Source: an uncultured Desulfobacterales bacterium
GTDB lineage: Bacteria; Desulfobacterota; Desulfobacteria; Desulfobacterales; JAFDCJ01
DNA length: 7,185 bases
Direction: 5' to 3'
Assembly (NCBI GenBank): GCA_945787595.1
Contig: CALZJV010000670.1
Span: 1-7,185, forward strand
This document shows, piece by piece, positions 784 through 6,992 of this stretch. The position numbers and the translations under genes were made by a program. The notes below the pieces were generated by a model, which saw only the letters and a list, made by a program, of their open reading frames with translations, ran no database searches and was not told the origin of the DNA. Position 1 is the first letter of the stretch; each line of letters starts with the position of its first letter.

Positions 784-829
784 CATCAAGATAAAACAGC
801 TAACTGTCTTGCACCTGCAGGAGGTTTGA

Positions 830-2096
830 TTGAAAAAACAGAAGCTTTTGATTATTGAAGACGAAGCCTCGGTGGCCAAACAGCTTAAGTGGGGTCTCGG
901 GGAGGAATATGAAATTACCATTGCCGTCCAAGCTGATCAAGCAAGACCACTGCTGGTCTCCGGCTCCTTTTCTGTCATCACCCTGGACCTGGGGCTGCCG
1001 CCCTACCTGGATAGCCCGCAGGAAGGTTTCAAGCTCCTGGAAGAGATAAGTTCTCTTTCCCCCCAAACCAAGGTAATCGTCATCACCGGCAATGCCGAGA
1101 AGGAAAATGCGGTCCAGGCCATTGCACCGCCGGCTGCAGCGGCATGCTTTCCAGGGTGGGGAGTTTTGCGGTATGCTGGGTGTCTCCCCGGTTATGGGCC
1201 GGCTGTTCGAGCGGATCAGCAAGGTGAGCGGGACCGATTATCCGGTGCTCATAACCGGAGACAGCGGCACAGGCAAGGAGATGGCCGCACGGGCAATTCA
1301 CAGTCTGAGCCCAAGGGACCAAAAGCCCCTGGTGATCATAAACTGTGGAGCGATTCCTGAAAACCTTTTAGAAAGCGAGCTTTTCGGCCACGAAAAAGGG
1401 GCTTTCACCGGGGCTGCCGGGCGCAAAATCGGCAAGTTTGAGCAGGCTGACGGGGGGACGATTTTTTTAGACGAGATTGGTGAACTGCCCTTGGCCCTGC
1501 AGGTGAAAATTCTGCGGTTTCTCCAGGAAGGTACCGTCGAGCGGTTGGGAGGCATAAAGACAATTACCCTGGATGTCCGCATCCTTGCCGCCAGCAACAT
1601 CAATCTGAAAGATGCCGTCAAGAAAGGTGGCTTCCGCGAAGACCTCTTCTACCGCCTGAACGTTGTCCCGTTAATGGTCCCCAGCCTGAGGGAGCGAGCG
1701 GAAGATATCTTACTTCTGGCCCATCACTTTCTGGGGGAGGAGAGCCAAAAACTTCAGCGTGGGCCAACTTCCCTATCGCCGGCTGCGATCTCCGCTTTGA
1801 CTGCAAATACCTGGCCGGGTAATGTGCGCGAGCTGCAGAACCGCATCCGCCGGGCTTTGGGCACCACCACCGGTCGAATCATAGATCCCGTCGACCTGGG
1901 ACTGGAAGACGCACCGCCAGAGTACCTGGGGCAAAAGTTTCTTACCCTGAAACAGGCCCGGGAAACAGCCGAGAAAAAGACCATCCGCCAGGCCCTGGCA
2001 CTGACCGGCAACAATATCAGCCAGGCTGCCAAGCTGCTTGAGGTCAGCCGGCCAACCCTGCATGACCTCTTGAAGAAGTATGGGATCGGTTCATAA
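830..2096 (+). pseudogene. prsR: PEP-CTERM response regulator PrsR, broken in the receiver domain
   Basis: A TTG start at 830 follows a good ribosome binding site (AGGAGG, about 819-824). It opens a response-regulator receiver: acidic pair in IIEDEAS (residues 10-12), phosphoacceptor D53 in LDLGLPP, Thr in VITGN. Similarity stops after QAI near 1123. The following codons belong to a different frame, which from 1125 reads RRLQRHAFQGG and then GMLGVSPVM. That is the linker and start of the sigma-54 AAA+ domain. About 30-35 codons are missing, including beta-5/alpha-5 and the conserved Lys-Pro. The downstream half is intact to the TAA at 2094-2096: Walker A GDSGTGKE (1257-1280), GAFTGA sigma-54 loop (1398-1415), Walker B with FLDE, REDLFYRLNV, WPGNVRELQN, and a Fis-type HTH (about 1992-2084). 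The family activates sigma-54 promoters of PEP-CTERM/exosortase genes on phosphorylation by PrsK. An internal ATG at 1173, 9 nt after GGGGAG, could give a receiver-less 307-residue activator. Identity is strong, supported by the nearby prsK and PEP-CTERM gene; a sequencing or assembly error at the junction is not excluded. Confidence 0.82.
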
Positions 2097-2386: not shown

Positions 2387-2941
2387 CTATGCCCTGTAAG
2401 CCTTCTTGTTATACCGTTTGCGTCCATAAACCACTAAACCGAGAAGGCCGGAGCCCATGAGCAATATAGTGGCAGGTTCGGGGACAGGAGCAATTGGTAT
2501 TGCGTTAGCCTTAGCCAAATATATCGCCTTATTAAATTTGAAGCCACGTATCTTACTGCCCAATATTCTTGCAACCAACTCAGCACGTATAAAGCCTTTC
2601 TCGCTTAGGGTTATGGTAGATGTTAACCAATATTCGGCTCCCTTTATCTTAATTTTCTTCTCTCTGATGTTTTCTCCTATTGTGAGGTTTTGCATAATCC
2701 ATGTCATACTCTTATTACGGTTATCAGAAAAATTCAAATTTATTTTAGGCCTGATTTTATGTTGTGAGTGGCTATTAAATCCTTTAATGGCTACATTATG
2801 CGTCCAGTTGTGGATAGTATTATTCGTCATAAAAGCATTGGCCTTATATGTACTCAAATTTTTAAACGGCATAGCACTCGCAGTTGCCACTATCCCAAAA
2901 ACCAGCGTCACCGCACATAAAAACATTAAAAACTTTTTCAT
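2387..2941 (-). CDS. Small secreted PEP-CTERM sorting-domain protein
   Basis: This 184-residue protein has a clean signal peptide (MKK, hydrophobic core 4-20, likely cut after ASA at 23). It ends in a PEP-CTERM sorting signal: VPEPAT at 153-158, a hydrophobic segment at about 159-172, and a basic tail with GRKRYNKK. Such proteins are exported by Sec, held in the inner membrane by the C-terminal helix, then cut and released by an exosortase (XrtA/EpsH), usually into an extracellular polysaccharide matrix. The start at 2941 has AGGAAGAG 4 nt upstream. The mature part (24-150) is rich in Asn and Lys, strongly basic, contains no Cys, and has five N-x-S/T triplets (N28, N40, N45, N76, N85). I do not recognise a named domain in it. 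The gene is AT-richer than prsR and prsK. A terminator follows it, and a candidate sigma-54 promoter with activator site lies upstream, so it is probably a PrsR target. No exosortase is in the window, so the processing enzyme must be elsewhere. The architecture is certain; the specific role is unknown. Confidence 0.92.
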   Translation of the reverse strand: MKKFLMFLCAVTLVFGIVATASAMPFKNLSTYKANAFMTNNTIHNWTHNVAIKGFNSHSQHKIRPKINLNFSDNRNKSMTWIMQNLTIGENIREKKIKIKGAEYWLTSTITLSEKGFIRAELVARILGSKIRGFKFNKAIYLAKANAIPIAPVPEPATILLMGSGLLGLVVYGRKRYNKKAYRA

Positions 2942-3638: not shown

Positions 3639-5753
3639 TCAGTCACGGTCCGATTTTCCGCTCCTTACCAGCGGCAGCCTGATCACAAACCGGGCTCCGC
3701 CCCTTTCAACATTTTCAGCGGATATGGTCCCTTTGAGGCTTGTCACTAGACGGTGTACCTGCCAGAGGCCGATACCCGTTCCTTTGGACTTGGTGGTCTT
3801 GAAGGGCTGAAACAACGCGTCGGGCAAAAGATTCACGGCAATTCCCCGGCCGCTGTCCGTGATCTCTATGATTGCCTGCCCCTGACCGTCATCTCTGGAG
3901 GCTTTTATCCGCACGACTCGTCCCCCACCGCCTGCCTCCAGTGCGTTTAGCAGCAGGTTCTCCAGGACGGGGAACAAAAGCTTCGGATCTGAATTTACCC
4001 GGATTGAAGTCCGGCAGTCGAGAGCGATATTCATAGCCTCCAACTTTTTCCCCAATTGTGCGCAGTGGTCTTCCAGAAACTGCCTGAGTTCCATGTCCTG
4101 CCAAACCGGAGCAATCTCATCTTTGAGCATGCTCAAACGATCCTGCACTTTGGCCATCCTTTTTAGGGCATCATTTACGGCCTCCAGCATGTCTTGCTGA
4201 AATTCGGGCTTTTGGATATGGTCGGCAGCGTTCTTACTGGCCAACGAGAGCATGGTGGCTGCATTTTTGACATCGTGGAGGACAAAGGCCGACAGCTTGT
4301 CCCAGGCCCTGAGCTCCCGGGCATGGGCCAATTTCTCGCTCATTCTTACTGCCAGCAAGGCGGAAGCCGCCTGGGTGCCAAGTGCCGTCAGCAGGTCAAA
4401 GTCGTCGTGGCCATAACGGCCTCCGGTAAATTCCGGTCCGAGACCGATCAAGCCGACGAGCTGATCTCCGATGAAAAGCGGTGCCGTGAGTACCAGATTG
4501 AGATCCGTCAGAAATCCCTCCTTTCTTTCTGCTACCGTTTTCCATTCCCCGTCAGGTTCTTTTTCGTTGACGTCGAAATAGGGATGTGTCCGGAGGAATC
4601 GAACCAGTGGATCATCGGGGGAAAAGGCATTGGCAATTTCTCTACCGTCCGGGTTCCCATCTGATGAAACAATTCTGTAACCATGCCCCGTATCCCCAAG
4701 CCATATGATAAGATTAGTTGTATATAGACTTTCGGACAAGACCTGGCGTAGCGCCTTGATCACATCGTCCTCGGTTAAAGCTCCCTGTAGGTGACCGGAA
4801 AGGGCCAGCCACTCGTCCCGATACTCGTATTTGTTGACATAAAAATGGGTGCTGATAAAGAATTGAACTCGGCGACGCAGCTTCCCGGAGAAGGCAAATA
4901 AACCAATGGCAACTAGTCCGAGAGCCAGAAACAGCCAACCTAGCACAAAAGGAAGGGTCAGCCCGAATGTTCGCATAATTAAGGAGACAACGCCAAGAGC
5001 AAAAAGATATCCGGCAAAAATGGATGGTGCCACAAAGGAATAGACGATCTTGCGGGATATAAACATCTTGCGGTTTAGCAGCCGGTGGCGGGCGACTGCG
5101 TAACCCATAAAGGACCAGGCAACAAGCACGAGCGCAGCAGTGAGCATAAAATGATCGGAAGCGAGCCGCAGGAACGTAAGCCGGTAAGAGGTGGCCCAGG
5201 CAAATGTTCCACAGATCAGATACCCTCCGACAACCAGGAATTTATATTCCCAACGACGTGCCGGTTCTAGCGTACGCCAGAATCTTTCCAGGCGCCATGC
5301 CATGGCAAGTACAGATATCAGGAGGAAAATGGCATAAAAATAAACCGATCCATTATGGTTAAAGACAAGACTTTGATCTGCTATGCGGATACGGATTGCC
5401 GGGGGGTAGACTAAGCAATAGCCAATCAGCGCTATCACCACGGCTCCAATTAAAATCTGTATTAATAGGGTTTGACGGGATTCCTGAGCCGGCGTAACGG
5501 TCACCCTGCCCAGCCGGTAGGCCATTACAAACCAAAGAAAGGCAAAAATGGTTTCAGAAATAAGGAGCAGCGGCACCACATGGGGTTCCAAGTGATAGCT
5601 CAGGAAGATGTATTCAGCGGCCAGCAACGGCATACATAGCAGGACCTGGACTAGAGAAAGAGAATAACGCCGTTCAACGCTTTTAAGGCGAAAAACCAGA
5701 AGCGAGGAGAGCAACAACAACAGATTCGATACGTAAAATAAATAGATCGGCAT
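3639..5753 (-). CDS. prsK: PEP-CTERM system membrane sensor histidine kinase PrsK
   Basis: This 704-residue protein is full length for PrsK kinases. The first ~290 residues hold about eight or more hydrophobic segments (e.g. 5-22, 33-52, 60-79, 96-116, 138-153, 171-188, 202-220, 240-290). A GAF-like domain follows at about 318-470. The kinase core has H493 in VLHDVKN, the phosphorylated residue and the DVKN variant typical of this family. Next come an N box ENLLLNALEAG (598-608), G1 DSGRG (633-637), F box FQPFKTTK (648-655) and G2 KGTGIGLW (657-664), so all ATP-binding motifs are present. The known role is to sense an unidentified envelope or redox signal and phosphorylate PrsR, which drives sigma-54 promoters of PEP-CTERM genes. 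prsK usually sits directly upstream of prsR on the same strand; here it is convergent with a damaged prsR and separated from it by the PEP-CTERM gene. The ATG at 5753 has no clear ribosome binding site, but an in-frame stop lies nine codons upstream and no better start is near. The kinase looks functional but may lack its partner. Confidence 0.93.
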   Translation of the reverse strand: MPIYLFYVSNLLLLLSSLLVFRLKSVERRYSLSLVQVLLCMPLLAAEYIFLSYHLEPHVVPLLLISETIFAFLWFVMAYRLGRVTVTPAQESRQTLLIQILIGAVVIALIGYCLVYPPAIRIRIADQSLVFNHNGSVYFYAIFLLISVLAMAWRLERFWRTLEPARRWEYKFLVVGGYLICGTFAWATSYRLTFLRLASDHFMLTAALVLVAWSFMGYAVARHRLLNRKMFISRKIVYSFVAPSIFAGYLFALGVVSLIMRTFGLTLPFVLGWLFLALGLVAIGLFAFSGKLRRRVQFFISTHFYVNKYEYRDEWLALSGHLQGALTEDDVIKALRQVLSESLYTTNLIIWLGDTGHGYRIVSSDGNPDGREIANAFSPDDPLVRFLRTHPYFDVNEKEPDGEWKTVAERKEGFLTDLNLVLTAPLFIGDQLVGLIGLGPEFTGGRYGHDDFDLLTALGTQAASALLAVRMSEKLAHARELRAWDKLSAFVLHDVKNAATMLSLASKNAADHIQKPEFQQDMLEAVNDALKRMAKVQDRLSMLKDEIAPVWQDMELRQFLEDHCAQLGKKLEAMNIALDCRTSIRVNSDPKLLFPVLENLLLNALEAGGGGRVVRIKASRDDGQGQAIIEITDSGRGIAVNLLPDALFQPFKTTKSKGTGIGLWQVHRLVTSLKGTISAENVERGGARFVIRLPLVRSGKSDRD

Positions 5754-6080
5754 GGAATTAACATCAATGAAAGGTTGGGTTTAATTTTATTACCGCACCT
5801 AACAGAGGCGTGGCAATTTACCCCTTTGTGGGAGCCGATAAACAGCCTAACAGCCAGGCACATAGCCGCAATACCAACCCAACACAGGCAGATATAGATA
5901 AATGCAGCATGACTGAAGCGGGCATCGGCCATCCCAAATTACATATGCTGTATTTGGTAGCACTTTGGAGACTTCCGATCAAGATTTTCATGATCTTTTA
6001 AAAAAAATCAGCAATTTTTTATACGAACGCTAATCATGCACGGTTAAGGTGCATTTTAAGGTTAAAGGCGAAAGGTTAAG
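5754..6080. other. Gene-free region upstream of prsK
   Basis: No convincing gene. A hydrophobic 93-codon open frame on the minus strand (5651-5932) has no ribosome binding site and enters prsK out of frame. The stretch should hold the prsK promoter, but nothing near consensus was found. GATCA/TGATC flanks 9 nt near 5979-5997, next to an A-rich run at 6000-6007. From about 6055 the DNA becomes purine-rich (AAGGTTAAAGGCGAAAGGTTAAG), leading into the direct repeat at 6081. Confidence 0.5.
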
Positions 6081-6161
6081 GGTGAAAGGCGGAAGGAAAG
6101 AAGCGGCGAAGTTGGGAAGATGAGAAGTTGAGATACGCTTGGGGCGCTTTTTAAGCTGATT
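6081..6161 (+). repeat. Direct repeat copy 1 (left of MazEF)
   Basis: This 81-bp purine-rich segment starts GGTGAAAGGCGGAAGG and ends TTTTTAAGCTGATT. It recurs in the same orientation at 6913-6992 with about seven substitutions and one 1-bp indel, roughly 90% identity. The two copies frame the MazEF-like pair and its promoter. Copy 1 ends only 4 bp past the toxin stop codon. It contains internal GAAGTTG repeats. Confidence 0.88.
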
Positions 6162-6165
6162 TAGT

Positions 6166-6525
6166 TTATTTGGTTATTAAAGGAATTGCTAAAATTAACT
6201 TCAAGCCTTCATGCACCTCGTCCATTCTTCTATTTGAAAGCGTGCCAATTTTTTCTTTAATGCTTCTTTTGTCTGCAGACTTAATTTGAGTAGTATTGAT
6301 TACGCATTTTTTTGGTAAATTTGCCTCTCCTTTTCTTAGAATCACGTTGCCAGGCAGTTCTCCAAATTTTATTGTAGATGTTATCGCCAGCATGATAACC
6401 GTGTTGAGTTTACTATCGTTTAATATGTCATTTTGAATGACAAGACCCGGCCTACGTCCAATCGGCTCAGAACCCTTTCCCGGTGAAAAATTAACCCAGT
6501 AAATGGAACCTTTTCGAATTACCAT
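6166..6525 (-). CDS. mazF: MazF/PemK-family mRNA interferase toxin
   Basis: The product is 119 residues from ATG 6525, the usual MazF length (about 110-120), and opens MVIRKGSIYWVNFSPGKGSE. Family hallmarks include GSIYWVNFSPGKGSEPIGRRPGLVIQ with the active-site Arg in GRRPG (R24/R25), the ST loop LAITST (T49-S50) and the NTTQI segment. MazF toxins cut single-stranded RNA at short sequence motifs and stop translation when the antitoxin is lost. A longer open frame runs up to 6561, but its extra 12 residues are antitoxin coding DNA out of frame. The 6525 start has GGAGG (6532-6536) 6 nt upstream and overlaps the antitoxin stop in ATGGTAA, the signature of translational coupling. All family landmarks are present, so it is likely active. 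Confidence 0.93.
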   Translation of the reverse strand: MVIRKGSIYWVNFSPGKGSEPIGRRPGLVIQNDILNDSKLNTVIMLAITSTIKFGELPGNVILRKGEANLPKKCVINTTQIKSADKRSIKEKIGTLSNRRMDEVHEGLKLILAIPLITK

Positions 6526-6773
6526 TCCTGGCCTCCCTGGTTCCCAGCTCCATCGAACCATTTGGTCGAATGGAGTTGCTCCTTTTTGATTGAATCATCT
6601 GAAAAGACCCGGTTATATGAATCTTTAATTTGTCGTTCCTTTTCGCTTAATACCTTTTCGCGAAGTACGTTTGATATATATTTGCTGCGAGACAGCCCCA
6701 TCTGTTTGCTGATATCATCAATCATTATCACAAGGTCAGCCGGAATTGTGATAGCAACTTTTTGTGTATGCAT
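6519..6773 (-). CDS. mazE: Ribbon-helix-helix antitoxin paired with MazF
   Basis: This 84-residue protein has an N-terminal ribbon-helix-helix DNA-binding domain at about residues 4-45: the beta strand KVAITIPADL, then MIDDISKQMGLSRSKYISNVLRE. A charged, probably disordered tail follows, with SIKKEQLHSTKWFDGAG, the part that would wrap around the toxin. This is the RHH class of MazF partners rather than the AbrB-like E. coli MazE, so the symbol is used by position. The start ATG 6773 follows a perfect AAGGAGGT (6781-6788) with 7-nt spacing. It is first in a two-gene operon, overlapping mazF by 7 bp. With the toxin it is expected to bind the promoter region and repress it, as in other type II modules. 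Confidence 0.92.
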   Translation of the reverse strand: MHTQKVAITIPADLVIMIDDISKQMGLSRSKYISNVLREKVLSEKERQIKDSYNRVFSDDSIKKEQLHSTKWFDGAGNQGGQEW

Positions 6774-6865: not shown

Positions 6866-6912
6866 AAGGAAAACATAGGGGTCCTCAGATACGCAGGAGG
6901 ACAAAGGATAAA

Positions 6913-6992
6913 GGTGAAAGACGGAAGGGCAGAAGCGGCGAAGTTGGGAAGATGTGAAGTTGGGATACGCTTGGGCGGTTTTTAAGTTGATT
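6913..6992 (+). repeat. Direct repeat copy 2 (right of MazEF)
   Basis: This is the 80-bp partner of the repeat at 6081-6161, same strand, about 90% identical. The similarity is densest in AGAAGCGGCGAAGTTGGGAA. Copy 1 continues GATTTAGTTTATT, but here that continuation is displaced: GATTGAGTTTATT occurs only at 7080-7092, after an 84-bp interval bounded by GTTGATT (6986-6992 and 7077-7083). Confidence 0.88.

Follow-up and report, generated by a model that had tools for sequence, protein, structure and literature searches.

A 98-nt out-of-frame deletion separates the receiver from the AAA+ half of a prsR gene located near an uninterrupted prsK

The window (the whole 7,185-nt stretch of DNA analysed here, from an uncultured Desulfobacterales bacterium) carries a prsR gene (830..2096, forward strand) that is split into a receiver frame and an AAA+/HTH half in the +1 frame, a frameshifting deletion having apparently cut PrsR off from its intact kinase PrsK. 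The predicted loss of PrsK control over PrsR is well founded, and the gene is probably a recently broken one, with PrsR output most likely abolished.

The native start of prsR is a TTG codon preceded by a Shine-Dalgarno-like AGGAGG (819..824, forward strand) with an anti-SD duplex of -11.0 kcal/mol. The frame that begins there keeps 98 receiver codons (830..1123, forward strand) corresponding to positions 1-93 of the 445-position TIGR02915 profile, and then runs through an out-of-frame tail (1124..1360, forward strand) to the stop of the ORF (830-1360), overlapping the AAA+ frame. The remaining linker, AAA+ and HTH half (1128..2096, forward strand) lies in the +1 frame, open from an ATG at 1092, and matches TIGR02915 positions 127-444 as well as PF00158, PF25601 and PF02954. 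These limits agree with the first-pass annotation, which had the receiver match stop after QAI (1123) and the AAA+ half resume in another frame. TIGR02915 is the best family for both pieces, whose scores of 95.9 and 391.8 bits, each below the curated cut-off of 502.6, were taken per piece. Between the two, 33 profile positions (94-126) are missing. The codons that we take to encode the phosphoacceptor Asp (986-988) and the Thr (1085-1087) are both kept. A full receiver with Asp, Thr and Lys is nevertheless lacking, as the profile match ends at position 93 and the Lys column is gone, and the last receiver helix and most of the linker are lost besides the conserved Lys.

A comparison at the DNA level allowed the precise placement of the lesion. 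In BLASTN against L023, a MAG contig and the nearest DNA relative compared, segments 974-1125 and 1126-2096 align and exactly 98 nt of L023 remain unmatched between them, so that the junction falls at 1125..1126 (forward strand; last left-flank and first right-flank base). The 98 nt do not make up a whole number of codons, so the frame changes at this point. The window has 4 nt between QAI, which ends at 1123, and RRLQ, which starts at 1128. Among 49 distinct orthologous loci, counted only where the receiver match reached its last residue and the AAA+ match began near its first, 46 have 102 nt at this place, two have 105 nt and one has 90 nt. Under stricter limits, with loci restricted in the same way, 29 of 30 (a set with three duplicate pairs) have 102 nt and the other has 90 nt. 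At the protein level, all but one of 113 full-length relatives have 34 residues in this interval, the exception having 31, and the receiver Lys, absent in the window, occurs in 113/113; the 30-35 codons, including this Lys, estimated to be gone by the first-pass annotation were thus well judged. Alignment to full-length PrsR (TIGR02915), in which 94-126 are absent, and the 98 nt lost with respect to L023 confirm that the deletion is real relative to the family. As judged from these comparisons it is also private to the prsR of the window, the junction being found in none of the relatives inspected (protein sets of 13 and 14, and the loci measured). Such an out-of-frame loss in an otherwise near-constant interval argues for a broken gene.

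The same data bear on whether prsR is intact in the genome and the contig merely lost 98 nt, for instance through collapsed strain variants. The nearest homologue, P0001 (93 percent), which covers only the AAA+ half on a 1,072-base contig and has no starting Met, carries some of the missing region in frame, and several metagenomic relatives are frame-broken at other places, both of which would fit such an artefact. A clean loss of 98 nt is, however, unlike a typical base-calling indel, the exact breakpoint against L023 shares no base (by eye) between its two sides, and prsK is uninterrupted over 704 codons. An assembly artefact is considered unlikely.

If the gene is broken as proposed, translation from the native TTG would give the 98 receiver residues plus an unrelated tail that ends at 1360, and this fragment could not serve as a phospho-switch. 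Little or nothing of the AAA+ half would be made, PrsK-PrsR signalling would be lost, and the second half of the gene would not yet have had time to decay. Ribosomes shifting by +1 somewhere from 1126 to 1360 could in principle join the receiver stump to the AAA+ half and yield a PrsR devoid of the Lys, since both frames overlap free of stops from the junction to 1360; we know of no shift signal in this overlap, and consider the event very improbable.

The AAA+/HTH half shows no visible damage and retains every motif, as the first-pass annotation had noted for the sigma-54 activator motifs. The sigma-54 interaction domain (PF00158, 233.8 bits), the AAA lid (PF25601) and the Fis-type HTH (PF02954, 41.8 bits; 1959..2081, forward strand) are complete. 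In the translation, the stretches GDSGTGKE (1257..1280), GAFTGA (1398..1415) and GGTIFLDEIG (1452..1481), all on the forward strand, presumably correspond to the Walker A region, the sigma-54 contact loop and the Walker B region, respectively. The AAA+ sigma-54 domain with GAFTGA and the Fis-type HTH expected of a PrsR are thus both in place. The absence of extra damage in this half, with all motifs kept, and the uninterrupted PrsK stand against a gene that is simply broken. In a different scenario, an internal ATG at 1173 (or 1107 or 1092) would direct synthesis of a receiver-less, constitutive PspF-like activator deaf to PrsK; we regard this rewiring as doubtful. A product initiated at 1173 would consist of the complete AAA+ and HTH domains (307 aa, 33.4 kDa), and the chains of PspF crystal structures align from residue 148 or 149 of homologue P0002, close to the Met equivalent to 1173, which would suit such a protein.

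A closer inspection of the region around the candidate ATG (1173..1175, forward strand) showed that it lies 9 nt after GGGGAG (1158..1163, forward strand), just as the first-pass annotation had indicated. This SD-like stretch, placed within Gly-Gly-Glu codons, gives a pairing of -8.0 kcal/mol that could support initiation, a point in favour of rewiring and against a plain loss; the other starts of the AAA+ frame pair more weakly (ATG 1092, -2.8; ATG 1107, -4.3; TTG 1122, -3.3 kcal/mol). Nevertheless, of 32 orthologue rows, which include three duplicate pairs, 30 have ATG as the codon equivalent to 1173, one has ATC and one has TTG; the full prsR frame is present in 29 of these rows (the others being L023/L090, broken, and L037, which runs off its contig), and 27 of the 29 carry the ATG. 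Pairing energies range from -11.5 to +1.5 kcal/mol among the 32 rows and are stronger than that of the window in the intact rows L010/L083 and L018 only. With the ATG found in 27/29 intact rows and the pairing within their spread, the site was not gained with the deletion, and on the sequence comparison both the ATG and the SD-like stretch before it belong to the ancestral coding sequence. In addition, the frame of the native TTG 830, with its strong SD, is open across 1173 to 1360 and out of phase, so that ribosomes coming from 830 would cross the internal start out of frame. The ancestral nature of the site, the open receiver frame and the strong native SD all weigh against rewiring and in favour of a broken gene. 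In P0012 and P0148, which are probably one gene since the longest contig is 38,855 bases in both, the gene caller picked the Met equivalent to 1173 in a differently broken prsR with an altered HTH end; this choice makes a protein from 1173 conceivable and counts to some extent against a mere loss.

Substitution patterns were compared between the two halves. The window has eight private changes in 98 receiver columns (0-2 in each of nine relatives) and three in 322 columns of the AAA+ half (0-3 in each of ten relatives), a contrast that looks like a relaxed receiver next to a constrained AAA+ half. With equal sampling, that is, with P0001 dropped because it covers the AAA+ half only and the same nine relatives summed for both halves, the counts become 8:6 in the window versus 7:10 in the relatives (Fisher p = 0.30), and in each half no relative has as many private changes as the window. 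The orthologue comparison put forward in the first-pass annotation therefore revealed no demonstrable difference between the halves, which speaks against rewiring. On a fixed tree the branch of the window measures 0.110 in the receiver, level with that of P0005, and 0.067 in the AAA+ half, where no other member of its clade has a longer one, and in both halves it is shorter than those of some outgroup rows. The branch along which substitutions were counted may reach back well beyond the deletion, so that the undamaged AAA+ half says little either way. Gap counts from BLASTN alignments (about 70 percent identity) were dropped as a measure of decay because L004 and L010, with an intact prsR, also give many gaps of 1-2 nt; tblastn frames and stops were used instead.

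By this measure, PrsR-matching genomes keep the full frame in 37 of 40 cases (452-493 aa, no internal stop) and are broken in three. The 40 distinct genomes comprise nine of ten searched (the tenth, G010, with a match of only 51 percent, was excluded), six new ones from the 9/148 matching at 1e-120 and 25 new ones from the 29/389 matching at 1e-115. In G009, whose locus is L023 and which is thus the closest DNA relative, the receiver, the AAA+ half and prsK are all broken; in G334 the receiver changes frame and the AAA+ half contains a stop; and in G014 (L098, about 1059-1404) the receiver is interrupted by a repeated stretch of about 20 codons, with frame change and stop, while the AAA+ half is open, a lesion independent of that in the window. 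A receiver query of the 389 genomes matched 35, including 28 of the 29 that matched with the AAA+ half, the exception being G334. Short receiver frames were seen in G323 and G226, where the match reaches the end of the contig or of the available stretch, in G258 (163 aa, with 173 bases available after the match) and in G368 (112 aa). The 1.6-Mb MAG of G009 gave no exosortase match alongside its frame-broken prsR and prsK, which may reflect incompleteness, as G001, with an intact prsR, has none either.

Among the best 120 homologues listed, 113 are full length and seven shortened, the sequences of all the latter but P0094 having been inspected. In addition to P0001, P0009 and P0020 (metagenomic) open with out-of-frame residues and then continue in frame, with the receiver broken and the AAA+ half open; P0012 is without receiver and altered at its HTH end; P0039 retains the receiver and is altered and short at its C-terminus; P0094 (430 aa), named partial, keeps the receiver domain; and P0101, with no receiver domain call, has V as its first residue and begins within the last part of the receiver, probably at a contig edge. 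Damage to the receiver only is thus found in the window, in one genome (G014) and in two metagenomic proteins, whereas G009, G334 and P0012 are damaged in both halves. Strict searches with the AAA+ half preferentially recover copies in which it is intact, which biases this mix, and a trend can be neither claimed nor excluded; G009 itself would have failed the limits of the 148- and 389-genome searches. A search of the plasmid collection gave no match to 600-2200 of the window, and the titles and abstract openings among the literature matches listed held no direct precedent for a receiver deletion, an internal start or a broken PrsR. The prevalence of full frames and full-length homologues, the receiver matches in 28/29 genomes, the AAA+ damage in two of the three broken genomes and the state of prsR and prsK in G009 favour a recently broken gene, and the lack of any relative with the same junction is a further point against rewiring. 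G014, P0009 and P0020, in which a broken receiver is likewise followed by an open AAA+ half, point in the opposite direction.

The neighbourhood of prsR is that expected for the family. The gene for the XrtA/PEP-CTERM histidine kinase PrsK (3639..5753, reverse strand; 704 aa) scores 335.6 bits against TIGR02916 (cut-off 300), and its H-box, HDVKNAATM, has the same form in 5/40 relatives, HDIKNAATM occurring in 19/40. The window is convergent for prsR and prsK, as are 20 of the 24 loci holding both genes (same strand in three, divergent in one). Between them lies a gene for a PEP-CTERM protein (2387..2941, reverse strand; PF07589), which completes the linkage of prsR to prsK and PEP-CTERM genes. 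The likely terminator of the PEP-CTERM gene is an inverted repeat at 2325-2354 (by eye), which has a minus-strand T-run. A role for PrsR in the control of PEP-CTERM genes has been inferred, in a passage of PMC1569441, from co-occurrence with a sigma-54 motif, and an excerpt of PMC9850573 reports RpoN dependence for one PEP-CTERM gene and one mutant that was not restored by plasmid-borne prsK or prsK-prsR. A scan with one simple consensus found no -24/-12 sigma-54 site above chance upstream of the PEP-CTERM gene at 2387-2941, a result that counts against rewiring. The best candidate there, which has no GG, scored 11.8 and was rejected (95 percent level of Markov-1 random sequences, 12.3).

Further features lie elsewhere in the window. 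Just downstream of prsR, at 2256-2324, the 3' end of a second prsR may survive as a relic: 49 nt are 73 percent identical to prsR (E 7e-6), and 23 residues match PrsR proteins with an E of 8.9e-4 in blastx and of 5.9e-6 in tblastn run without composition correction, in a comparison with 120 proteins and five intergenic pieces. At the other end of the window, direct repeats of 86 nt (6066-6151 and 6898-6983, 86 percent identical) flank a MazE/MazF-like pair (6166-6773). At 181-600, an AbrB/MazE-like gene has its N-terminal part in a different frame from the rest (by eye) and is followed by a PIN-like gene that stops at about 53 codons (PIN_3, E 0.0024, below the cut-off); together they are probably a decayed toxin-antitoxin pair. 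The presence of these frame-broken and truncated genes in the same window is in line with prsR being a further broken gene.

Overall, a recently broken gene is the more economical explanation with respect to a rewired activator. In the receiver-less, PspF-like rewiring suggested by the first-pass annotation, two elements stand, as PrsK control should be gone and the AAA+/HTH module is complete, whereas the production or selection of this half found no support. If prsR is merely broken, it would represent one more two-component system that loses its output half before its kinase, and its sole use would be to mark the loss of the PEP-CTERM regulon in this lineage. In the other case, to which we give little credence, an always-on activator made from 1173 would render the PEP-CTERM/exopolysaccharide surface programme constitutive and leave PrsK an orphan. 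A two-component regulator would thereby have given rise to a PspF-like activator, an event perhaps repeated in G014, P0009 and P0020. Were the AAA+ half made, the conversion of a phosphorylated into a constitutive regulator would have been caught at its start.

With respect to PrsR as defined by TIGR02915, the window shares both family matches and the prsK and PEP-CTERM neighbours and differs in the absence of positions 94-126 and in the placement of its halves in different frames. The nearest solved structures to PrsR are chains 4l4u, which we take to be an NtrC-family chain, and 1ny5, and this affiliation is compatible with a rewired activator. The latter chain is NtrC1. In NtrC1 and DctD the receiver and coiled-coil linker hold the AAA+ domains as inactive dimers, a repression described in a portion of PMC2941729, and loss of both parts from PrsR would by analogy release its AAA+ domain. 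We infer that PrsR belongs to this regulatory type. In the window the repressing receiver and linker part is the one deleted, and with the receiver end and most of the linker gone, a free AAA+/HTH product would be active if NtrC1 and DctD are a guide. PspF and HrpR/S, listed in Table 1 of PMC7175178 (group 4) among the bEBPs without a regulatory domain, provide the other point of comparison. The product of the window from 1173, if made, would likewise be composed of AAA+ plus HTH only, but would differ from them in being the deletion descendant of a receiver-bearing regulator.
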